Source of the DNA: a virus
IMG/VR virus record: IMGVR_UViG_3300023174_000036
Location: 1-64,000 of that record
Length of the DNA stretch: 64,000 nucleotides
Strand: one strand, 5' to 3'
Part shown: piece by piece, positions 1 to 7,025 of the stretch
Position numbering within the stretch: position 1 is the first letter of the stretch
Layout: each line of letters begins with the position of its first letter
Program-made: the position numbers and the translations under genes
The notes under the pieces: model-generated
Seen by the model: the letters and a program-made list of their open reading frames with translations, nothing else
What the model was told of the DNA's origin: nothing
The model's database searches: none

Positions 1-303
1 GATCAGGCCAGCCAGGACAGCCCTACTGACTTACGCATGAACTTTGACTCAGCATGGGCTCCGCCTATTGCGGCCATGGAGAAGTTTCAGGACTTGGGCT
101 TTAAGGTCAAGCTCGTCTATTGGGAATCGGGTATGTGCTTCTGCGGTGTCTTTGATGAGAATGGCGATGACTACTTTGACTACACTGATATGTCAGCAGA
201 CGAAGTGGAAGCCAACATCAACCCAGAGATTGACGAGTGTATGTGCATCGTAGAGAACCTGCGTGAATGGGAAGAAGACAACGCAGAAGAGGAGGAAGAG
301 TAA
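1..303 (+). CDS. YubB ferredoxin-like (DUF1281-type) protein, 3' part
   Basis: The reading frame is open to base 1, so this is the C-terminal part of a gene cut by the window edge; the first internal ATG is at 37. The stretch FDSAWAPPIAAMEKF followed by LGFKVKLVYWESGMCFCG matches the conserved tail pattern of YubB-like ferredoxin-fold proteins found on phages and plasmids, which read roughly FDTAWSPP...GF.V...Y.E.GM.FCG. The end is a run of glutamates. Its stop codon overlaps the next start as TAATG, which suggests translational coupling. The molecular function of the family is not known to me. Family assignment is by motif memory and moderately secure. Confidence 0.6.
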   Translation, partial: DQASQDSPTDLRMNFDSAWAPPIAAMEKFQDLGFKVKLVYWESGMCFCGVFDENGDDYFDYTDMSADEVEANINPEIDECMCIVENLREWEEDNAEEEEE

Positions 304-464
304 TGGACTTTTGGACATGGCTTGCTTCCTGCCCAGTGAAGTATGAAGTCGATAGCCTACAGGGCTTTGACGGAGTCAGTGTAGCGTTCTACCCACCCAC
401 AGAGGACGAAGAAGAGAATCAGGAAATTGAGTTGAATCACGGAATTGACAGCATCAATGAATGA
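303..464 (+). CDS. Small acidic hypothetical protein (53 aa)
   Basis: ATG at 303 overlaps the preceding TAA (TAATG) and follows a GAGGAAGAG purine run that can serve as ribosome-binding site. This start is preferred over an in-frame upstream ATG at 267 inside the previous gene. The product begins MDFWTWLASCPVKYE and is acidic in its second half. The last codons (I-D-S-I-N-E) contain the -35 box of the following promoter. I do not recognise the protein. Confidence 0.55.
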   Translation: MDFWTWLASCPVKYEVDSLQGFDGVSVAFYPPTEDEEENQEIELNHGIDSINE

Positions 465-473
465 TAGTATAAT
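445..473 (+). promoter_or_regulatory. Sigma70-type promoter P1
   Basis: TTGACA at 445-450, exactly 17 bp, TATAAT at 468-473. The -35 box lies inside the end of the upstream gene. It would drive the 503 and 627 genes. Both hexamers are perfect consensus. Confidence 0.85.
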
Positions 474-502
474 TAACACTTAATAACAACAAAGGTACAG
501 CA

Positions 503-640
503 ATGAAAACCAATCGCGAGAAGAACACGGAGTATGATGCTAAGGCGCAAGCCAGCATCCGCCCCAAAGAACCTGAATACAACTGGAAACCACTCGAAGA
601 AGTCATTCGGCAATGGGTGCTAAAGAATGAGCAGACTTGA
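503..640 (+). CDS. Small hypothetical protein (45 aa)
   Basis: An ATG at 503, about 30 bp after P1 and after an AAAGGTACAG leader, opens a 45-codon frame beginning MKTNREKNTEYDAKAQ and ending NEQT. The product is hydrophilic, with a central IRPKEPEYNWKPLEEV segment. It overlaps the next gene by 14 nt (ATGAGCAGACTTGA), typical of coupled phage genes. Function unknown. Confidence 0.6.
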   Translation: MKTNREKNTEYDAKAQASIRPKEPEYNWKPLEEVIRQWVLKNEQT

Positions 641-890
641 ACTATTCGGTAGACCCTGGACTGTATTCGATCCTGCTAACAAGGATCACAGAAGGTATTA
701 TCACCAATTTGTCCTAACGGCCAGTTGGGGTGAGTGCCCGGTTAGGTTTGTGGTGCCAGAAGACCACGGCGATTTGGTTACTATGATTCAACGCAGTTTG
801 ATTGCTTACTATGTAAACCGTGAGTTCAAATCAAAGAAACCACCTGCTCCTTTGGTTCGCCAAAAGAGGAAGAAAACGGTTGACAACTAA
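627..890 (+). CDS. Hypothetical protein (87 aa)
   Basis: The start at 627 lies inside the end of the preceding small gene, and the two should be translated together from P1. The product starts MSRLELFGRPWTVFDP, has a basic C-terminus (KSKKPPAP...RQKRKKTVDN) and no recognisable catalytic motif. Its last codons (T-V-D-N) contain the -35 box of promoter P2. Function unknown. Confidence 0.6.
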   Translation: MSRLELFGRPWTVFDPANKDHRRYYHQFVLTASWGECPVRFVVPEDHGDLVTMIQRSLIAYYVNREFKSKKPPAPLVRQKRKKTVDN

Positions 891-908
891 CCGAAATAGT
901 TGTATAAT
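880..908 (+). promoter_or_regulatory. Sigma70-type promoter P2 with inverted repeat in spacer
   Basis: TTGACA at 880-885, 17 bp, TATAAT at 903-908. The end of the -35 box and the spacer form an inverted repeat CAACTA-N7-TAGTTG (884-902). It drives the 964 and 1333 genes and possibly the tRNAs. Confidence 0.85.
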
Positions 909-963
909 TAGAACATGAACAAGGCGTTCATATTTTTTAACACACACAGAAGAGGTATTTAAA

Positions 964-1329
964 ATGGCTACAGATAAATTGTTTACGGTTGCAGGTATTA
1001 GTAAATTGGATGGCGAGTACAAAGTTCGCTTTGCCAATGATATCATGCGTATCAAGGTGTTGGCAAAACATGGTCACGAAGACATTCGATTGGCTGATCT
1101 CGAGAAGGCAGTTACCAAGCTCGAGGCTGCACAGATGATCTTGACTATGGAAGACTTTGCTGATGCAATTGCCCAGGCAACTATCACAGAGTATCTTGAA
1201 GACAAGACTCCTAAGGCTAAGGTCTCTAAGCCTGTTGCTACCAAAGCAACGAAGACTCCGGTAGCGAAGACTACCAAGGCACCTGCGAAAGCAGTTAAGG
1301 TTACTGAGGACGAAGACGCTCCTTTCTAA
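964..1329 (+). CDS. Hypothetical protein with Lys/Ala/Thr-rich basic tail
   Basis: ATG at 964 follows an AGAGG site. The 121-residue product has an apparently folded N-terminal part (about residues 1-80, MATDKLFTVAGISKLDG...). A low-complexity tail of K-A-T-P-V repeats (about 81-115) follows and ends in acidic EDEDAPF. The tail resembles histone H1-like or other nucleic-acid-binding tails in composition only. It is followed 3 bp later by the 1333 gene, so both are probably one transcript from P2. Function unknown; a DNA- or RNA-binding role is a guess. Confidence 0.6.
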   Translation: MATDKLFTVAGISKLDGEYKVRFANDIMRIKVLAKHGHEDIRLADLEKAVTKLEAAQMILTMEDFADAIAQATITEYLEDKTPKAKVSKPVATKATKTPVAKTTKAPAKAVKVTEDEDAPF

Positions 1330-1332
1330 GCT

Positions 1333-1524
1333 ATGTCATTCATTCAGTATGAAGTATGGGGTGTGGTGGACGGACGCGATGAACTAGTCGAGTGCGTCCC
1401 CACTCTCAAAGAAGCAGAAGAGATCCTCAAGGCTGAATTTGATTCAAACGAATTCTATACCGAAATGTTTATACTGGAAGACAGGGATGATGTATTGAAA
1501 GAAGTACGAAGACAGGCACACTAG
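1333..1524 (+). CDS. Hypothetical protein (63 aa)
   Basis: Starts 3 bp after the previous stop. The product (MSFIQYEVWGVVDGRDELVE...) looks like a small alpha/beta domain with an internal helix LKEAEEILKAEFD and acidic C-terminal half. I recognise no family. The tRNA genes begin 5 bp downstream, so the primary transcript may include them. Confidence 0.55.
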   Translation: MSFIQYEVWGVVDGRDELVECVPTLKEAEEILKAEFDSNEFYTEMFILEDRDDVLKEVRRQAH

Positions 1525-1529
1525 TTTCA

Positions 1530-1607
1530 GGGCCCCTAGCTCATGTTGGTTAGAGCAGTGGACTCATAATCCATTGGTGCCGTGTTCGACTCACGGGGGG
1601 CCCACCA
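1530..1607 (+). tRNA. tRNA with CAU anticodon (Ile2 or elongator Met)
   Basis: A full cloverleaf: acceptor GGGCCCC with GGGGCCC, D arm GCTC/GAGC, and an anticodon stem GTGGA/TCCAT around loop CTCATAA giving anticodon CAU. The T arm is CCGTG-TTCGACT-CACGG, with an encoded CCA end. The anticodon arm and following bases resemble bacterial tRNA-Ile2, whose C34 is changed to lysidine to read AUA. Elongator tRNA-Met also has CAU, so the charge identity is not settled by sequence alone. Phages often carry tRNA-Ile2 to serve AUA-rich genes. Confidence 0.9.
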
Positions 1608-1612
1608 TACAT

Positions 1613-1689
1613 CAGCCCTTAGCTCAGTTGGATAGAGCAACAGCCTTCTAAGCTGTAGGCCACTGGTTCGAATCCAGTAGGGCTGGCCA
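1613..1689 (+). tRNA. tRNA-Arg (UCU)
   Basis: Acceptor CAGCCCT pairs with AGGGCTG, the D arm is GCTC/GAGC, and the anticodon stem ACAGC/GCTGT encloses CTTCTAA, giving UCU. The T arm is ACTGG-TTCGAAT-CCAGT, and CCA is encoded. It reads AGA/AGG arginine codons. It lies 5 bp after the CAU tRNA, and the pair is probably processed from one transcript. Confidence 0.93.
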
Positions 1690-1691
1690 AT

Positions 1692-1718
1692 ACCCTGCCA
1701 TTTGACAGGGTTTCTTTT
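1692..1718 (+). terminator. Probable terminator after tRNAs
   Basis: ACCCTG (1692-1697) and CAGGGT (1706-1711) form a 6-bp stem with an 8-nt loop, followed by TTCTTTTT. The right arm overlaps the -35 box of the next promoter, so the end of one unit and the start of the next share sequence. Confidence 0.6.
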
Positions 1719-1730
1719 TGGTTGTATAAT
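1702..1730 (+). promoter_or_regulatory. Sigma70-type promoter P3
   Basis: TTGACA at 1702-1707, 17 bp, TATAAT at 1725-1730; perfect consensus. Drives the HNH gene at 1759. Overlaps the tRNA terminator. Confidence 0.85.
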
Positions 1731-1758
1731 TGATACATACAACACAACGGAGCCCAAT

Positions 1759-2160
1759 ATGAGCAAGATTCTAAATTTTCGTCCAGTGTGCGTGAATCAT
1801 GGTTGCAACAAGCCAGTGATGCAAAAAGGCGGCACTATTGATAATCCCACTGGCTGGCGAGTGCATTGCGGGCATTGCCAAAAGGCATCATATGGCGGGC
1901 ACGCTCATGCTGTGGGTGTTACTCCATTCAAGACAGGCCAATGCTCAAATCAACAGGGCAAATTGGGATTCTCTTGTGTGATTGATTGGGAATCAGCCAG
2001 CCAGCAAGGATTGGCCATTGCCACTGAGATTGATCACATCAACGGCGACCACATGGATAACAGACTGGTAAATCTGCAGGAACTTTGCCCAGTGTGCCAC
2101 AAAATCAAAGGCCAACGAGAAGGCAACTATGACGGATGGCGCAACTACAGAGCTGGTTGA
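1759..2160 (+). CDS. HNH-type endonuclease-like protein
   Basis: ATG at 1759, after ACGGAG, gives 133 residues; an in-frame ATG at 1702 lies upstream of the promoter start and is rejected. Residues 91-119 (EIDHINGDHMDN, then NLQELCPVCHKIKG) form an HNH signature: D92-H93, N101, N105, and C110-x2-C113-H114. Further cysteine pairs occur N-terminally (C11/C16 and C37/C40), suggesting zinc binding. HNH nucleases in T4-like phages are commonly free-standing homing enzymes, which nick DNA and spread to neighbouring phages. The stop codon TGA is part of the next -35 box. Confidence 0.75.
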   Translation: MSKILNFRPVCVNHGCNKPVMQKGGTIDNPTGWRVHCGHCQKASYGGHAHAVGVTPFKTGQCSNQQGKLGFSCVIDWESASQQGLAIATEIDHINGDHMDNRLVNLQELCPVCHKIKGQREGNYDGWRNYRAG

Positions 2161-2185
2161 CACTCTAACCAAAAGGCAGTATAAT
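2157..2185 (+). promoter_or_regulatory. Sigma70-type promoter P4
   Basis: TTGACA at 2157-2162 (its TGA is the stop codon of the HNH gene), 17 bp, TATAAT at 2180-2185. Drives the 2214 gene. Confidence 0.85.
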
Positions 2186-2212
2186 TAACACATAAACACA
2201 CACAGGAGCGAA
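2169..2212 (+). repeat. 44-bp exact direct repeat, copy 1 (promoter/leader)
   Basis: Covers the spacer end, TATAAT, untranslated leader and GGAGCGAA ribosome-binding site. Identical over 44 bases to 2471-2514. Indicates recent duplication or conversion of a promoter-leader module. Confidence 0.95.
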
Positions 2213-2213
2213 G

Positions 2214-2462
2214 ATGATAGCAGAACAAACCCGCACAGTAGTATTCCAGGGCATCACATACGATGCCACACACGGTGGTCCATTCGATAGAGGCTCAGCA
2301 GACAGCTACTACGGTCGCCCACAAGTTCCCCACAAATACCCCAACGGCACTGGCAATGCTCCACGCATTGAAGCCCCAGAGCTGACCCTAGCAGAGATGC
2401 GCGAGTACTACAGGGGCTATGAGTACAATGAGTGCTTTGGCGACAAGAAAGACTGGGGTTGA
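2214..2462 (+). CDS. Hypothetical protein (82 aa)
   Basis: ATG at 2214, one base after the GGAGCGAA site. The product begins MIAEQTRTVVFQGITYDA and is rich in Gly, Pro and Tyr, with a C-terminal helix LTLAEMREYYRGYEYNE. No known domain recognised. The stop TGA is embedded in the -35 box of P5. It belongs to the group of early-type single-gene units with GGAGCGA sites. Confidence 0.55.
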   Translation: MIAEQTRTVVFQGITYDATHGGPFDRGSADSYYGRPQVPHKYPNGTGNAPRIEAPELTLAEMREYYRGYEYNECFGDKKDWG

Positions 2463-2487
2463 CAGCCCGCCCAAAAGGCAGTATAAT
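2459..2487 (+). promoter_or_regulatory. Sigma70-type promoter P5
   Basis: TTGACA at 2459-2464 (contains the stop of the 2214 gene), 17 bp, TATAAT at 2482-2487. Confidence 0.85.
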
Positions 2488-2514
2488 TAACACATAAACA
2501 CACACAGGAGCGAA
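2471..2514 (+). repeat. 44-bp exact direct repeat, copy 2 (promoter/leader)
   Basis: Identical to 2169-2212; supplies promoter -10, leader and ribosome-binding site to the 2518 gene. Confidence 0.95.
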
Positions 2515-2517
2515 CCT

Positions 2518-2712
2518 ATGCTAGTACACTTTATCAACACCGGACACGGTTTGGACATGGGCGTGAAAGAAGTAGAATGCCAAAGCCTCCGGTTGGACCA
2601 TTCGGATGCACCCTACGCCATCGTAAGCCACCCTTTCCAACCCAACGGATGCTGTAGAGCAGAGCGCAACTATTTCAACGGCGAACTGCAATGGGTGGTT
2701 GACTTCGATTGA
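2518..2712 (+). CDS. Hypothetical protein (64 aa)
   Basis: ATG at 2518 after GGAGCGAA (2507-2514). The product begins MLVHFINTGHGLDMGVKE and contains C-C-R-A-E-R around residue 48. No recognised family. Its final codons (V-V-D-F-D) encode the -35 box of P6. Confidence 0.55.
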   Translation: MLVHFINTGHGLDMGVKEVECQSLRLDHSDAPYAIVSHPFQPNGCCRAERNYFNGELQWVVDFD

Positions 2713-2727
2713 TTTTGGCGCTATAAT
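2699..2727 (+). promoter_or_regulatory. Sigma70-type promoter P6
   Basis: TTGACT at 2699-2704 (one mismatch), 17 bp, TATAAT at 2722-2727. The -35 lies in the upstream coding region. Confidence 0.8.
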
Positions 2728-2760
2728 ACACACATACACAGCAAATAAGGAGCGAACTTT

Positions 2761-3090
2761 ATGCAACTGCTAATCACTACACAAACACAAGAAAACTACG
2801 GTGCCCACGATTGGGACGGAGTTGGTGAGTGCCCACAGTATTGGAAGTTCAAAGGCGGCCAGGACTACCGGTATGATTTGGGCAAGTTCGGTCGTAGCCA
2901 AGAGGCGCTCACTGAGTTGGTGATGGCCTTGCGTGGCCAGATTGAAGAAGACAATGACTACTACCGCAACCACATCATTGGTTGGGAAGTGGTTGCAGAC
3001 GACTACCTCACTGAGTTCGAACAGAGCCAGTTGGAGTACGAAGGGCGCATTGCCTATCCCGCAACCCGTTTGGAGTTGGAGACTGCATGA
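2761..3090 (+). CDS. Conserved phage hypothetical protein (109 aa)
   Basis: ATG at 2761 after GGAGCGAA (2749-2756). The N-terminus, MQLLITTQTQENYGAHDW then GECPQYWKFKGG, is of a type I associate with conserved hypothetical proteins of large phages. No catalytic motif is evident. The C-terminal half is acidic and helical (LTELVMALRGQIEEDNDYY). Its stop overlaps the next start as ATGA. Confidence 0.6.
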   Translation: MQLLITTQTQENYGAHDWDGVGECPQYWKFKGGQDYRYDLGKFGRSQEALTELVMALRGQIEEDNDYYRNHIIGWEVVADDYLTEFEQSQLEYEGRIAYPATRLELETA

Positions 3091-3188
3091 ACGACATCTT
3101 GTATGCGTTCTATATCACTATGGAACTGTGGATCTTCTGCGGTGTCCTGTTGACAGCTTTGGTAATTGAAGCTATAATTACTACTTAA
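3087..3188 (+). CDS. Membrane microprotein (33 aa)
   Basis: ATG at 3087 overlaps the previous stop (ATGA), indicating translational coupling. The 33-residue product is hydrophobic: after MNDILYAFYITMEL comes WIFCGVLLTALVIEA, enough for one transmembrane helix (about residues 13-30), ending IITT. The whole of promoter P7 (3150-3178) lies inside this coding region, so codon choice is constrained by two functions. No homologue recognised; coupling, hydrophobic pattern and lack of a competing frame support it being real, but it is short. Confidence 0.5.
   Translation: MNDILYAFYITMELWIFCGVLLTALVIEAIITT
3150..3178 (+). promoter_or_regulatory. Sigma70-type promoter P7, fully inside a small gene
   Basis: TTGACA at 3150-3155, 17 bp, TATAAT at 3173-3178. 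A short inverted repeat AGCTT/AAGCT spans the spacer. Confidence 0.85.
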
Positions 3189-3212
3189 ACAACACAATAG
3201 GGAGCGACCCAA

Positions 3213-3596
3213 ATGGCTAAAACAAATTATGACAACTTCGCGAGCTTTGACCTTAACGAAGCCTGTGATCACTTTGACTGTACTGATCAAAAGGCCTGGA
3301 AGAAGATCCGTCCTTTCATCGTAGCAGACGGTGAAGAGTACGCAGAGGTCATGGAGAAAGAGTTTGACTTTGAAGAAGTCACCGACACAGACCACATGGT
3401 GTTTGAAGCAGGCGTCAAGTATGCGCTTACCAAAATGAACATTGCACTGGACAAAGCAGGCATAGACGTGCAGGTCTGCGAGGTAGACTTGGTAGAGAGC
3501 ATGGGCTTTATGATGGTCCGTTGCGATGACGAGCCCGAGGACTTTGTAAAACGAGTGCTGAAGAAGCCCGTCATGATGGTTGACAGCTGGGTGTAA
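3213..3596 (+). CDS. Acidic hypothetical protein (127 aa)
   Basis: ATG at 3213 after GGGAGCGA (3200-3207). The product (MAKTNYDNFASFDLNEAC...) is strongly acidic with many Asp/Glu, three cysteines, and hydrophobic stretches consistent with a small alpha/beta fold. Acidic small early phage proteins often act as inhibitors or DNA mimics, but nothing here identifies a target. Its C-terminal V-D-S-W-V codons contain the -35 box of P8. Confidence 0.55.
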   Translation: MAKTNYDNFASFDLNEACDHFDCTDQKAWKKIRPFIVADGEEYAEVMEKEFDFEEVTDTDHMVFEAGVKYALTKMNIALDKAGIDVQVCEVDLVESMGFMMVRCDDEPEDFVKRVLKKPVMMVDSWV

Positions 3597-3608
3597 TCCA
3601 GTTATAAT
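3580..3608 (+). promoter_or_regulatory. Sigma70-type promoter P8
   Basis: TTGACA at 3580-3585, 17 bp, TATAAT at 3603-3608. A short CTGG/CCAG inverted repeat lies in the spacer. Confidence 0.85.
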
Positions 3609-3643
3609 ACATACTTACACAACACAACATAGGAGCGAAACTT

Positions 3644-3970
3644 ATGATTACAGCAGATCAAATTGCAGTTGGCAAACAACTAGCAGAGCAAGCGTCAGTA
3701 GACATGTACAACCAAATGGGCCGCAAGGATGCATTTGCCTGTGGCTTTGCTTGGGTAGACGTCTACGTGGATCGTACTAACAGCAAGCAGGCTAAGGAAT
3801 TGATTGCCGCAGGCTTTAAGAAGGACTACAAACCAAAATGTCTGAGCATTTGGAATCCAGGCAATTTGCCAGTCCAAAACATCGACATCAAAGAAGCGGG
3901 TGCGGATGCTATGGCCACTTACTTGAGAGGTTTGGGTTTGAATGCCTACAGCGGATCACGTTTAGACTAA
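3644..3970 (+). CDS. Hypothetical protein (108 aa)
   Basis: ATG at 3644 after GGAGCGAA (3632-3639). The product starts MITADQIAVGKQLAEQAS and includes a GFAWVDVYVDRTNSKQAKEL segment and a Lys-rich GFKKDYKPK stretch; it looks like a compact alpha/beta protein. No family recognised. The leader and promoter place it with the early units. Confidence 0.55.
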   Translation: MITADQIAVGKQLAEQASVDMYNQMGRKDAFACGFAWVDVYVDRTNSKQAKELIAAGFKKDYKPKCLSIWNPGNLPVQNIDIKEAGADAMATYLRGLGLNAYSGSRLD

Positions 3971-3979
3971 CCAAATGAC

Positions 3980-4008
3980 ATGACACGGAGTCGCCTCCGT
4001 GTTATAAT
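3980..4008 (+). promoter_or_regulatory. Sigma70-type promoter P9 with perfect inverted repeat between -35 and -10
   Basis: ATGACA (one mismatch) at 3980-3985, 17 bp, TATAAT at 4003-4008. ACACGGAG-TCGC-CTCCGTGT (3983-4002) is a perfect 8-bp inverted repeat filling the spacer. It could be an operator or a hairpin ending upstream transcripts. Confidence 0.75.
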
Positions 4009-4039
4009 TAATGTATATTAACACGCGAAGGAGCGAACA

Positions 4040-4936
4040 ATGGGTAATAAAGTTGTTACTAGTAAGATGTTGATGGCCCTGCAGAGTGATGTAAAGACTT
4101 TGGAAGTGGACACTACAGCAATTAAGGCCAAAGAAGCGGCATTGAAGAACGAAACAGATGAAGACATTTTGGGTCGTTTGCGTGACCGTTTTGAGATACT
4201 GGACGACATGACTCGTGCAGTCAAAGCAGGCAAGGTACGTGCTATGATTGTAACAGGCCCTCCAGGCGTTGGCAAGAGTTATGGCGTAGAGAATGTACTT
4301 TCAAAGCATGATGTGTTTGCTAACGTAGCACAAGACGAGAAGCTGAAGAAGTACGAAGTGGTTAAAGGTGCTATGTCAGCACTGGGCTTGTACAGCAAGC
4401 TATACCATTACAAGGATGCCAAGAACATCATTGTGTTTGATGACTGTGACTCAGTATTGCTGGACGACTTGAGCTTGAACATTCTCAAGGCAGCTTTGGA
4501 TACAAGCTCCAAGCGCATGATCCATTGGAACACTGACTCACACCTATTGCGTCGTGAAGGCGTGCCAGACAGCTTTGAGTTCAAGGGCGGTGCTATCTTT
4601 ATTACCAATATCAAGTTCGATCACGTTAAGAGCAAGAAGCTCCGCGATCACTTGGAAGCATTAGAGTCACGTTGCCATTACTTGGACTTGACTATTGACA
4701 CCACACGTGAGAAGCTACTACGCATTGAGCAGGTAGTTAACGAGTGTGGCATGTTGGACAAGTATGAGTTTGAAGACTACCAAAAGAGTGAAGTGGTAGA
4801 CTTTGTTAAGGCCAACGTTGACAAGCTACGTGAGCTGAGCTTGCGTACAGTACTTAAGGTAGCTGACTTGAAGCATGGCTTCCCGGACAAGTGGCGGGCA
4901 GTAGCAGAGGTTACATGTATGCGCAACAGCCGCTAG
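4040..4936 (+). CDS. AAA+ family ATPase
   Basis: ATG at 4040 after GGAGCGAA (4030-4037). The 298-residue product has Walker A GPPGVGKS at residues 73-80 and Walker B IIVFDDCD at 130-137. These are followed by an N-T-D-S-H segment and a sensor-like GGAIFITNI, all typical of AAA+ ATPases. The first 60 residues are helical. It uses ATP to remodel a protein or nucleic-acid partner that cannot be named from sequence. It is driven by promoter P9 and followed by a structured RNA that carries the complement of its own ribosome-binding site. Confidence 0.85.
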   Translation: MGNKVVTSKMLMALQSDVKTLEVDTTAIKAKEAALKNETDEDILGRLRDRFEILDDMTRAVKAGKVRAMIVTGPPGVGKSYGVENVLSKHDVFANVAQDEKLKKYEVVKGAMSALGLYSKLYHYKDAKNIIVFDDCDSVLLDDLSLNILKAALDTSSKRMIHWNTDSHLLRREGVPDSFEFKGGAIFITNIKFDHVKSKKLRDHLEALESRCHYLDLTIDTTREKLLRIEQVVNECGMLDKYEFEDYQKSEVVDFVKANVDKLRELSLRTVLKVADLKHGFPDKWRAVAEVTCMRNSR

Positions 4937-5114
4937 GCTAGTGTGTACAGTACAGCAAGCAGCCTACAAGAGCTGTACGCTGTAGCAGTAGGACAAGCTA
5001 GTAGATTCGCTCCCGAACGCTTGCCCATAAACACTAACGCCAACAAGGCAATGGTGTTTGGATCTAGGAACTCGTAAGCCCGATTCGCTCCCGGCTAGTT
5101 CCTAGATTTTTTTT
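4937..5114 (+). ncRNA. Structured non-coding RNA with two anti-ribosome-binding-site loops
   Basis: The stretch from the ATPase stop codon to a strong terminator has no gene and is rich in inverted repeats. GTACAGC (4950-4956) pairs with GCTGTAC (4972-4978), and CAAGC (4994-4998) pairs with GCTTG (5019-5023). The terminator hairpin follows at 5062-5114. The 12-mer GATTCGCTCCCG occurs twice, at 5004-5015 and 5082-5093, each time in a predicted loop. Within it UUCGCUCC is the exact complement of GGAGCGAA, the ribosome-binding sequence of five early genes, and UCGCUCCC complements GGGAGCGA of a sixth. No promoter is evident inside, so it is likely a 3' UTR or an RNA processed from it. The regulatory role is inference. 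Confidence 0.65.
5062..5114 (+). terminator. Rho-independent terminator with anti-RBS apical loop
   Basis: ATCTAGGAACT (5062-5072) pairs perfectly with AGTTCCTAGAT (5097-5107), followed by eight T. Inside, after a 4-nt bulge, AGCC (5077-5080) pairs with GGCT (5093-5096). The 12-nt apical loop CGATTCGCTCCC is the complement of GGGAGCGAATCG. Confidence 0.9.
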
Positions 5115-5331
5115 GATCGGATTATCGAAAAAGAAAAGCCTCCCGGAGGTTGAGAATACGAAATATTCTGCGAGGGGGGGTCGGGGCATATACATTTACA
5201 ACTGTTGTATTTTTACAACAGCGCATGGAATTTTGGTGGGCATAGGTGCCAAATCACCCCACCAAAAGCATAAGTACTTCTTTATAATTTTTTGCGCAAC
5301 GCCGCTACAGGTACACAGGACCATTTTGGGC
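5115..5331. other. Non-coding stretch with small hairpins
   Basis: No convincing gene on either strand. It holds a CCTCCCGGAGG inverted repeat (near 5140) that on the minus strand is followed by CTTTTCTTTTT, a possible leftward terminator. It also holds CTGTTGTA-TTTT-TACAACAG (near 5203-5222), a perfect 8-bp hairpin. A leftward RNA cannot be excluded. Confidence 0.4.
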
Positions 5332-5338
5332 ATAAATA
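5332..5338 (+). promoter_or_regulatory. T4-type late promoter box
   Basis: ATAAATA on the plus strand, 18 bp before the ATG at 5357 with GAGGA in between. Matches the T4 late consensus TATAAATA except the first base. Confidence 0.6.
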
Positions 5339-5356
5339 CCACATAGAGGATCCATC

Positions 5357-5779
5357 ATGCCAACACCCATATTACCCACCAAAACACAACTAGCTGGACT
5401 GCAATTCACACCCAAACAGCTGGTAGCAGACAAAACCGTTGAAGAGTATCTCACCATTACCAACAACTATGATTTCATACTCAAACTCATAGCCCAATAC
5501 AGAAGCGGAGCCAGAGCGTCATGGGCGGGTACTGGTGTAACTCCAGATGCATCCACTTATACTGAATTTGTTTATTTTTGTGATCTCCCCACATTGAATC
5601 TATTGATTGAGTATCTCACCAATGTAGACTATGGTTATGGCTATGTTGTGAAAGTGGCCAAAACTTCAGTTGGTTGGGAAACCAGAACCACTGCTATCTC
5701 CGTCACACCCAGTGACAGTTACATACTGCCCACTGGCAACAACGCAGGCAAATACGCACTGTTGGTATCTTGGGCTTAA
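5357..5779 (+). CDS. Hypothetical late protein (140 aa)
   Basis: ATG at 5357 is preceded by AGAGGATCC and a late-promoter box, so expression is probably late. The product begins MPTPILPTKTQLAGLQFTP. It reads like a small virion or accessory protein with beta-strand-forming stretches (VYFCDLPTLNLLIEYL, YVVKVAKTSVGWETRT). No family recognised. It stands alone between the early region and the pqqA-like gene. Confidence 0.6.
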   Translation: MPTPILPTKTQLAGLQFTPKQLVADKTVEEYLTITNNYDFILKLIAQYRSGARASWAGTGVTPDASTYTEFVYFCDLPTLNLLIEYLTNVDYGYGYVVKVAKTSVGWETRTTAISVTPSDSYILPTGNNAGKYALLVSWA

Positions 5780-5833
5780 AAACAACCCCACCAGAACTTC
5801 AAGTACTTCCCAAATTTTTTTTTGCGCCCACAA

Positions 5834-5858
5834 AAAATGGGCCCTAAAGACCCATTTT
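5834..5858 (-). terminator. Terminator downstream of pqqA-like gene
   Basis: AAAATGGG (5834-5841) and CCCATTTT (5851-5858) form an 8-bp stem with a 9-nt loop. On the minus strand the stem runs into TTTTTTG, so it fits termination of leftward transcripts from the pqqA-like gene; it may also act on the rightward gene ending at 5779. Confidence 0.7.
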
Positions 5859-5873
5859 GGTTGTTACTGTGCG

Positions 5874-5945
5874 TTAACGATTCATCACATACATGGTAAT
5901 TTCAAAGCCAAATCGCATTTCTTGTGCTGTTGGTTTAGTCCACAT
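5874..5945 (-). CDS. pqqA: PQQ precursor peptide PqqA-like
   Basis: A 23-codon gene on the minus strand with a strong AGGAGG site 9 bp before its ATG. The peptide begins MWTKP, contains MRFGFEITMY and ends MNR. Length, N-terminus and spacing match classical PqqA peptides (23 residues, e.g. MWKKP...GLEVTLY...NR). Glu15 and Tyr19 fall exactly at the positions that PqqE and the later enzymes cross-link and convert into pyrroloquinoline quinone, and FGFE-x-T-x-Y is the family hallmark. No pqqB-F genes are visible, so the peptide would feed host enzymes. A hairpin terminator follows. No clear promoter was found in the 120-bp leader. Confidence 0.85.
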   Translation of the reverse strand: MWTKPTAQEMRFGFEITMYVMNR

Positions 5946-6065
5946 GGTAGTTCCTCCTGGTTGATTACGGTTGTACATACTGTTCTTACACTAGTATGTA
6001 TCCGTATAGTAGCACGTATTCACCATGGAACACATAGTGAAAATCATTGATTCACCATAGTGATA

Positions 6066-6425
6066 TTATGGAGCAAAGTCACTGGCAGCTTGTGCTATAC
6101 GCCTGGCTTTAAGCTCATCTTCTTCACCAGTGTTGAGTTTCCCGCTCCATCCTGCCAAACTCAAAAACGGTACTCCCACTCTACTGGCAAAAGCACTGAG
6201 TCCATTCCAAAAGTTTGCGGCTCCATATGTGTTCACCGCATAGTTCAGCACACGCCATTGATCCACAGTCAAATAGGGTTTTAGCTGTGGGGCCGCAGTT
6301 ATAGCACCAGCGGCAACAGCACCAGTCCAATTGCCCTTGCTTATATAGTTCAGTATGGTTCGAATCAACACAGCATTTGCTGTGGCTTTTTCTGGCGCGG
6401 GCTCAGTGATTTCTTTCAGTCTCAT
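6066..6425 (-). CDS. Hypothetical late protein (119 aa)
   Basis: The start at 6425 (MRLKEITEPAPEK) is chosen because a perfect late box TATAAATA lies 5 bp upstream; the same frame is open to 6551 but the added residues look random. The product has an Ala/Gly-rich segment (WTGAVAAGAITAAPQL) and ends GEEDELKARR...ASDFAP. It may be a small virion-associated or membrane-active protein. No family recognised. It lies upstream of the pqqA-like gene on the same strand, so readthrough could supply pqqA. Confidence 0.55.
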   Translation of the reverse strand: MRLKEITEPAPEKATANAVLIRTILNYISKGNWTGAVAAGAITAAPQLKPYLTVDQWRVLNYAVNTYGAANFWNGLSAFASRVGVPFLSLAGWSGKLNTGEEDELKARRIAQAASDFAP

Positions 6426-6430
6426 ACATA

Positions 6431-6438
6431 TATTTATA
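6431..6438 (-). promoter_or_regulatory. T4-type late promoter TATAAATA
   Basis: Perfect TATAAATA on the minus strand, only 5 nt before the ATG at 6425; leaves essentially no room for a leader. Confidence 0.75.
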
Positions 6439-6673
6439 AGTATACATATGCTGATACCCATTCCGCTAGACCCCATAGCCGTAGACATCATAATAGAGCT
6501 ACTGTTGGAGTCTTTACAGTCATACGGGGCTGGGTGAGCATTAGCACTCATTTCGTGCGTTAACGCTCTGCTACTTCGTAGCTGTAAAAAATCTGCGCTT
6601 CGCGTTTGTTCTAAAATTTTGCGCTGGCGCTTCGCGATACTAAATAATCAGCGGTCCAATTAGTTTGAATCGC
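6439..6673. other. Intergenic stretch
   Basis: No supported gene, although a minus-strand frame from 6551 runs into the previous gene. It contains small hairpins such as GCTAC-TTC-GTAGC (near 6570) and repeated GCGCTTCGCG elements (near 6597 and 6628). No promoter besides the late box at 6674 was seen. Confidence 0.4.
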
Positions 6674-6680
6674 ATAAATA
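6674..6680 (+). promoter_or_regulatory. T4-type late promoter box
   Basis: ATAAATA, 27 bp upstream of the ATG at 6708, with AAGGA in the leader. Confidence 0.6.
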
Positions 6681-6707
6681 CACTTATAATTAAGGATATA
6701 CGATACA

Positions 6708-7025
6708 ATGAACCCGTTACCAACAACTTATACATTAGGACAGCGTACAATGAATTTTGTGGGTGCGTTGCAAAGTCTTTCTATTCACAGCAAGGAACAC
6801 CAGCACGTGGCACACCGAATTCTAGACAAGGTACATGCACCCAGATATCTTCACACGTTAACGCCAGAAGTGCTGGCCACCATGTACAGAACCATGCTGA
6901 CTGAAGCTGGACTTGATTCAGACTGTGTCACACAGTTCACTGACATTGCTGTGCAAATGAACCTGTTCCGTGATGTGGAAACACTGGATGACAATGTGAC
7001 TCCTTGGGTAGAACCACAGTCCTAA
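6708..7025 (+). CDS. Hypothetical late protein (105 aa)
   Basis: ATG at 6708 lies downstream of a late box and AAGGATATA leader. The product (MNPLPTTYTLGQRTMNFVG...) is rich in His and Thr, mostly helical in appearance. It includes KEHQHVAHRILDKVHAPRY and TPEVLATMYRTMLTEAG. No recognised family. It ends in a shared terminator with the convergent 7059 gene. Confidence 0.55.
   Translation: MNPLPTTYTLGQRTMNFVGALQSLSIHSKEHQHVAHRILDKVHAPRYLHTLTPEVLATMYRTMLTEAGLDSDCVTQFTDIAVQMNLFRDVETLDDNVTPWVEPQS

Follow-up and report, generated by a model that had tools for sequence, protein, structure and literature searches.

RNAs that present anti-Shine-Dalgarno (anti-SD) sequences in their loops have been described in several settings. 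In LhrC of Listeria monocytogenes, redundant C-rich sites lie in two loops, one of which is the terminator loop, and pair with the SD sequence of the target (PMC4132741). The locus described here resembles this family of UCCC-loop sRNAs, to which RNAIII, RsaE and SprD also belong, in having anti-SD loops that include the terminator loop. Those RNAs, however, are bacterial, occur in GC-poor Gram-positives and use a generic UCCC, whereas the present RNA is phage-encoded, lies behind a protein gene, pairs over 8-14 nt that include a clade-specific extension and is addressed to the phage's own ribosome-binding sites (RBSs).

The cuckoo or CcsR RNAs of alphaproteobacteria also have anti-SD loops, and the cuckoo loop, CCUCCUCCC, differs from the loop AUUCGCUCC found here. 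These sRNAs occur in repeated copies and share a transcript with the small protein gene that precedes them (PMC10253847). In Staphylococcus aureus, a motif in the 3' UTR of icaR pairs with the SD of its own mRNA (PMC3868564); the ATPase mRNA discussed below has a matching layout, but icaR concerns one mRNA and the present case 16 RBSs in one genome. RegA of phage T4 competes with the ribosome at the initiation regions of about 30 mRNAs (PMC3014915) and is thus a phage regulator with a similar physiological niche, although it is a protein. VpdS, PreS and PAK_P4as15 are phage-encoded RNAs that act on phage or host mRNAs, the last of which may delay lysis; the first two belong to temperate phages, PAK_P4as15 acts as an antisense RNA in cis, and the accessible part of the source describes none of them with an RBS address common to the phage's own genes (PMC12197685). 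Our literature search, limited to listings and passages of open-licence PMC papers, turned up no phage RNA whose RBS "address" has coevolved from lineage to lineage. The anti-SD loop principle is already known from LhrC and RNAIII; what we did not find in print, within that limit, is a phage RNA loop and phage RBSs coevolving as a lineage-specific address.

The DNA analyzed here (the window, 64,000 nt) is the first 64 kb of a 356,312-bp virus record. We propose, with a probability of roughly 0.8, that loops in the 3' UTR of an ATPase gene pair with RBSs and that this 3' UTR, or an RNA cut from it, blocks translation of the targets, including the ATPase mRNA.

The RNA downstream of the ATPase gene

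The ATPase gene product matched phrog_1250 (E 4e-83), and tblastn with it matches annotated nrdC.10; its match to Pfam AAA_16 (E 2.4e-6) is under the curated cut-off. The gene and the elements that follow it are:

4040..4936, + strand: NrdC.10-like AAA ATPase gene, 298 aa; precedes the 3' UTR, and its own RBS is a predicted target
4937..5114, + strand: 3' UTR of the ATPase gene or putative regulatory RNA, ending in the terminator U-tract; fold z -2.97, two loop copies, hairpins present in all 80 nearest relatives
4991..5026, + strand: hairpin I, GGACAAGC...GCUUGCCC, bearing loop copy 1 (MFE fold)
5004..5015, + strand: loop copy 1, GATTCGCTCCCG (exact match)
5029..5059, + strand: spacer hairpin AAACAC...GUGUUU, without the loop motif (MFE fold)
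5062..5107, + strand: hairpin II, the terminator stem, outer helix AUCUAGGAACU/AGUUCCUAGAU (z -4.95)
5082..5093, + strand: loop copy 2, GATTCGCTCCCG, in the terminator apical loop (exact match and fold)
5107..5114, + strand: U8 tract (from the sequence)

The original prediction that the 12-mer GATTCGCTCCCG occurs twice was borne out, as the window contains no further copy besides those at 5004-5015 and 5082-5093, not even when one mismatch is allowed (chance mean 0.05). The region 4937-5115 folds better than its shuffles (z -2.97), and none of 200 shuffles of the terminator hairpin folds as well as the original (z -4.95). Both copies had been placed in hairpin loops, the second in the apical loop of a "perfect" terminator. 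The position of copy 2 stands, but the terminator is not perfect: an 11-bp outer helix is followed by an asymmetric internal loop, a short inner helix and then U8. Copy 1 does lie in a hairpin, but its loop is only partly open, since the MFE fold pairs UUCG with CGAA and leaves only CUCC unpaired. In relatives the equivalent first hairpin is built on different scaffolds, most of which, as judged by eye, do not permit the UUCG/CGAA fold.

The region shows one feature expected of a 3' UTR-derived sRNA (a terminator shared with a protein-coding gene), one of an Hfq-dependent sRNA (a U-tract of at least about 7 behind the terminator, here U8 at 5107-5114, in the absence of Hfq-binding data) and one of an LhrC-type RNA (several loops, one in the terminator, complementary to the target SD). 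It fails the further LhrC-type expectation of a sequence or structure match to a described RNA family, as Rfam gave no match at 4937-5115 up to E 5 when window positions 1-7000 were searched. No promoter-like site was listed between 4937 and 5061 in our scan.

Ribosome-binding sites in the window and the whole record

GGAGCGA, the complement of the central part of the loop, occurs eight times in the window (chance mean 2.23; largest count 6 among 100 shuffles). The two copies on the - strand are the two loops, and the six on the + strand (2205, 2507, 2749, 3201, 3632, 4030) form the SD element of all six genes (2214, 2518, 2761, 3213, 3644, 4040) that had been named as targets. The site at 3201 reads GGGAGCGAC and the remaining five read GGAGCGAA. 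A sigma-70-like promoter precedes each gene:

2157..2185, + strand: promoter (12/12) before gene 2214
2205..2211, + strand: RBS GGAGCGA of the 82-aa gene 2214-2462; duplex with loop -14.1 kcal/mol
2459..2487, + strand: promoter (12/12) before gene 2518
2507..2513, + strand: RBS GGAGCGA of the 64-aa gene 2518-2712; duplex -13.9 kcal/mol
2699..2727, + strand: promoter (11/12) before gene 2761
2749..2755, + strand: RBS GGAGCGA of the 109-aa gene 2761-3090; duplex -13.9 kcal/mol
3150..3178, + strand: promoter (12/12) before gene 3213
3201..3207, + strand: RBS GGAGCGA (GGGAGCGAC) of the 127-aa gene 3213-3596; duplex -15.6 kcal/mol
3580..3608, + strand: promoter (12/12) before gene 3644
3632..3638, + strand: RBS GGAGCGA of the 108-aa gene 3644-3970; duplex -14.1 kcal/mol
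3980..4008, + strand: promoter (11/12) before gene 4040
4030..4036, + strand: RBS GGAGCGA of the ATPase gene; duplex -13.9 kcal/mol

These energies describe the bare duplex and leave out the cost of opening the hairpin. They range from -13.9 to -15.6 kcal/mol for the early RBSs and from -18.8 to -21.6 kcal/mol for the late leaders described below, and from -5.8 to -9.8 kcal/mol for the loop with 18 other GGAG RBSs of the window. The original interpretation is supported with regard to pairing of loop and RBS; shut-down of an entire early regulon has not been shown, and some early genes use other RBSs. Two adjacent tRNA genes (Met CAT, Arg TCT; window 1530-1689) lie just upstream of this early gene block.

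Across the whole record GGAGCGA is found 25 times (13 forward and 12 reverse, compared to 5 and 3 for the reversed-letter control). Two copies are the loops, 16 are RBSs before ATG, one is a second site in a late leader and six lie elsewhere. Ten of the 16 RBSs fall between 353 kb and 4 kb and would constitute one early block if the record's ends join, which has not been shown; further targets are located at 74, 177, 262, 278, 284 and 287 kb.

This distribution bears on whether the loops act only in cis, that is, on their own mRNA through 5'-3' UTR pairing as proven for icaR (PMC3868564), with every early transcript that reads through to 5114 carrying the hairpins. Such a scheme accords with the finding that the ATPase RBS is a target in the CGA and CCA classes of relatives (see below) alike, and no + strand terminator was listed between 1700 and 5400, although this is weak support given that the scan also misses the real one at 5062-5114. 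However, each of the six targets in the window has its own promoter-like site, other targets are spread from 74 to 287 kb and the late leaders belong to other transcription units. Because the targets have separate promoters and units, action in cis alone cannot explain the common RBS, and we consider it unlikely.

Late-gene leaders with a longer complement

Several exact matches to the loop pattern were RBSs and not hairpins, so we searched for the 14-nt complement before ATG. The matches listed by the exact 14-mer scan mix real hairpins, late leaders and chance matches, and no rate was taken from them. The pattern CCGGGAGCGAATCG-N0-5-ATG, where CCGGGAGCGAATCG is the 14-nt perfect complement of the loop, was found in 98 stretches, 80 of which were examined. 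A late-promoter-like TAAATA lies 13-25 nt upstream in 42 of these 80; one more, L582, was left out of an initial count of 43, as its distance is 37 and it is a hairpin. The others comprise 21 hairpins read from the opposite strand (plus L582) and 16 matches of other kinds. A control pattern of the same composition gave 17 stretches, none with TAAATA. Late genes with this perfect complement are the strongest predicted targets and had no place in the original prediction.

The proteins encoded behind these leaders include CsgF (4 of 4 tested: L082, L093, L114 and L152; E 4e-18 to 5e-8), DUF4337 (2 of 2 tested) and a 93-aa family of unknown function, phrog_18771; two further ones tested, those of L175 and L125, gave no match of note. 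By eye, CsgF-like starts are present in 16-17 and the 93-aa family in 12 of the 42, several rows being near-copies. We also observed that unrelated late gene families (L082, L093, L114, L148, L152 and others) have the identical 14-nt RBS CCGGGAGCGAATCG. Phage CsgGF has been proposed to regulate lysis (PMC9004378), a link that the present data do not show, and CsgF was sought in the window's own record without success.

That record has a late-promoter-like CTAAATATTA at position 278,913, with TCGGGAGCGAATCGA after it. A further 40 nt downstream comes TGGAGCGAATCAATG, which serves as RBS for a DUF4337 protein of 194 aa. The span 278912-278959 (locus L201:1501-1552) contains a 13-nt complement of the loop and a second site, GGAGCGAATC, at the DUF4337 RBS, indicating that the record also has a late-type gene with two sites. 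Two sites are arranged in this way in the leader of L175 too, where the gene that follows is unrelated: in both leaders, the full complement lies about 40 nt upstream of the RBS, with GGAGCGA at the RBS itself. Two loops per RNA and two sites per leader would allow bivalent binding, which we infer from the layout alone.

The distant site in L201 and L175 could instead dock or titrate the RNA, in keeping with a reading in which the pairing is real but its effect positive, either because target mRNAs are protected or activated or because they act as sponges that control the RNA. Our data show pairing and not its sign, which is not known. Nevertheless, the SD itself is covered in nearly all targets, and this usually blocks initiation, as in LhrC and icaR; by inference, initiation should be blocked here as well, and a positive effect seems quite unlikely.

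Conservation of the loop on changing stems

Relatives were fetched with the ATPase protein (phrog_1250), blind to the RNA motif. In each of the 80 nearest loci (71-100% identity), TCGCTCC lies no more than 700 nt past the end of the ATPase gene, and the conserved core loop, the 9-nt AUUCGCUCC, is displayed on several unrelated scaffolds. Among 122 distinct hairpins, a set selected by TCGCTCC, the A before the core is constant and the next base is U in 118 and A in 4. The CCUCCUCCC loop expected of a cuckoo RNA is not what these hairpins carry, the core being A(U/A)UCGCUCC in 122 of 122. A helix score of at least 6 was reached by the hairpin's own arms in 108 of 122 cases, versus 7.6% of 24,189 swapped arms; since own arms pair and swapped arms rarely do, the stem is free to change and the loop is not. 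An extra hairpin of L071 closes the loop with A-U in place of G-C. Both L071 and L065 have three loop-bearing hairpins and not two.

Members of the next clade (L227-L302) have the hairpin at a greater distance, 600-870 nt after the ATPase gene; a small gene for a winged-helix protein (HTH_39) comes before the hairpin and another terminator-like hairpin after it. Where the available sequence extends 950 nt or more downstream, the loop-bearing hairpin is present in 67 of 68 loci. Loci of this clade without a match are contig ends, except for L265, where the hairpin and the next promoter appear to have been deleted.

Covariation of loop and ribosome-binding site

Covariation of loop and RBS in relatives had been named as a check of the original prediction, and the outcome was positive. 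Distant loci (most with 47-65% identity) were added, and 28 loci that derive from the genome of the window itself were left out. Those with identical last 300 nt of the ATPase gene were merged, giving 324 distinct loci, some of which had been found by the motif itself; four were then set aside because their alignments were short. A fixed rule served to count RBSs (GGAG 2-11 nt before ATG, ORF of at least 40 aa, ATPase strand). The resulting table of 320 classed ATPase loci is nearly diagonal (counts of GGAGCGA / GGAGCCA / GGAGUAU / GGAGCUA among all GGAG-type RBSs):

CGA-type loops (138 loci): 590 / 4 / 8 / 10 of 1228
CCA-type loops (45 loci): 0 / 71 / 1 / 0 of 150
UAU-type loops (11 loci): 0 / 0 / 9 / 0 of 51
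CUA-type loops (3 loci): 0 / 0 / 0 / 3 of 13
No recognized loop (123 loci): 13 / 37 / 10 / 21 of 428

The loop UCGCUCC thus goes with GGAGCGA, UGGCUCC with GGAGCCA and AUACUCC with GGAGUAU. Some of the 37 loopless GGAGCCA sites belong to members of the CCA clade whose hairpin was lost at a contig end or is too imperfect for the rule. When loci were grouped into 41 clusters at 85% ATPase identity, the complement of the loop outnumbered every other RBS in 34 and shared first place in another 3, a match that was reached in 0 of 20,000 shuffles of the loops among clusters; GGAGUCG, a control triplet that is not the complement of CGA loops, did not occur at all. Four clusters are exceptions: in three with a CGA loop some other RBS is commoner than GGAGCGA, and one with a CUA loop likewise lacks its complement among the commonest RBSs. 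Base 8 is A in 417 of the 590 GGAGCGA sites and A or G in 62 of the 71 GGAGCCA sites; it can pair with the U of the loop, so that the pairing extends further. The ATPase gene of CCA-class genomes has GGAGCCAACC as its RBS, which is complementary over 10 nt to the conserved part of the loop. Among six CCA records searched, it stands directly before AUG at the ATPase RBS in three and before a GUG start in a fourth; no late gene with GGAGCCAACC was found in the six.

Of the compensated switches, that from CGA to CCA is well populated, whereas UAU (9 of 51 RBSs) and CUA (3 of 13; Fisher p 0.03) rest on few sites and are given little weight. Because the classes follow clades, independent switches are few and pooled p-values overstate independence. 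On an ATPase tree (70 rows, quick method), the four loop classes cannot be explained by fewer than 5 changes. L331 is placed there at a distance from the main CGA clade and has a UCGCUCC loop on a new stem together with two GGAGCGA RBSs. Loops matching other RBSs that are mildly enriched in some clusters (GGAGCAA, GGAGUUA, GGAGCAU) were sought in the sequence around the loci and not found. In L355, 4 of 6 GGAG-type RBSs read GGAGCAA, but the 2.2 kb downstream contain no loop complementary to it; this loop may lie elsewhere. In the L490 cluster, three members (L485, L486 and L498) have a hairpin with the loop ATTCGCTC at +37 after the ATPase gene, and their RBSs are not GGAGCGA; either the loop was retained and its targets lost, or it has another use.

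The joint change of loop and RBS also bears on whether the RBS extension was selected for another reason, for example by a ribosome containing the phage's bS21, with the loops being decoys or having an unrelated role. The phage does encode this ribosomal protein (294442-294597, - strand, E 5e-19), which could itself influence SD choice; bS21 contacts the SD/anti-SD helix (PMC9723584). Such selection, however, does not predict that a CCA extension in place of CGA is met by a loop altered to match it exactly, and we regard it as very improbable. A DNA-level repeat, such as a phage protein binding site that falls at RBSs and terminators by chance, would account for a short sequence recurring on both strands but not for sites at SD distance before ATG and in hairpin loops with compensating stems, nor for loop and RBS switching together; already disfavored, it is most improbable.

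Proposed model of the regulation

Loop/RBS pairing is strongly supported by comparison of genomes, which shows a conserved loop on changing stems, covariation of loop and RBS and sites in the RBS position. That the RNA represses, acts in trans and is processed to a stable form, and when it does so, is inference without transcript data. No expression data, isolate or host were available, and neither a covariance model nor a structure prediction was made.

In the mechanism that we propose, the 3' UTR of an early transcript, or a piece processed from it, would display AUUCGCUCC on two hairpins, the second being the terminator. The loop would pair with the GGAGCGA(A) common to the early genes, including the ATPase mRNA, and block 30S binding, making the RNA a self-limiting translational repressor of an RNA-addressed regulon. 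Late-gene leaders with a 13-14 nt complement, present in many relatives and in the record's own late gene at 278 kb, would be bound as well, and synthesis of late membrane or envelope proteins is probably delayed by this RNA for as long as it has not been swamped or cleared.

A wider scheme is conceivable, which we offer tentatively and do not favor outright: large aquatic phages may run an RNA-addressed translation programme, in which a clade-specific tag beside the SD is read by one RNA on interchangeable scaffolds. Weak 7-8-nt sites would shut early genes as the RNA accumulates and strong 13-14-nt sites would keep envelope genes of the late class (CsgF, DUF4337, the 93-aa family) silent until late in infection, the RNA being a counterpart of RegA and a late-gene or lysis timer, and the tag would be re-coded between lineages. 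A search for RegA (PF01818) gave no match in the record, but this test is weak because control genomes gave none either. If the scheme is true, re-coding would keep the regulators of rival phages apart in a shared cell. The mechanism proposed above would itself amount to a multi-gene translational regulon of a giant phage run by an RNA, with evolution having supplied the compensatory mutations. Early shut-off and late timing in giant phages would become directly testable, portable orthogonal RBS/loop pairs would be on offer and RBS tags readable from metagenomes would be explained.

Distant relatives

No isolated close relative was found by blastn of 4040-5200 in a phage collection, and all 1234 records matched by tblastn with the ATPase were below 60% identity. 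Bacterial genomes scanned for the ATPase gave no relative and hence no clue to the host. The corresponding regions of PA5oct and Cronobacter phage S13 contain neither the motif nor GGAGCGA. The annotation of Pseudomonas phage PA5oct does list a "putative lncRNA" (L303, 246116-246734), based on RNA-seq, some 2 kb upstream of its ATPase homologue.
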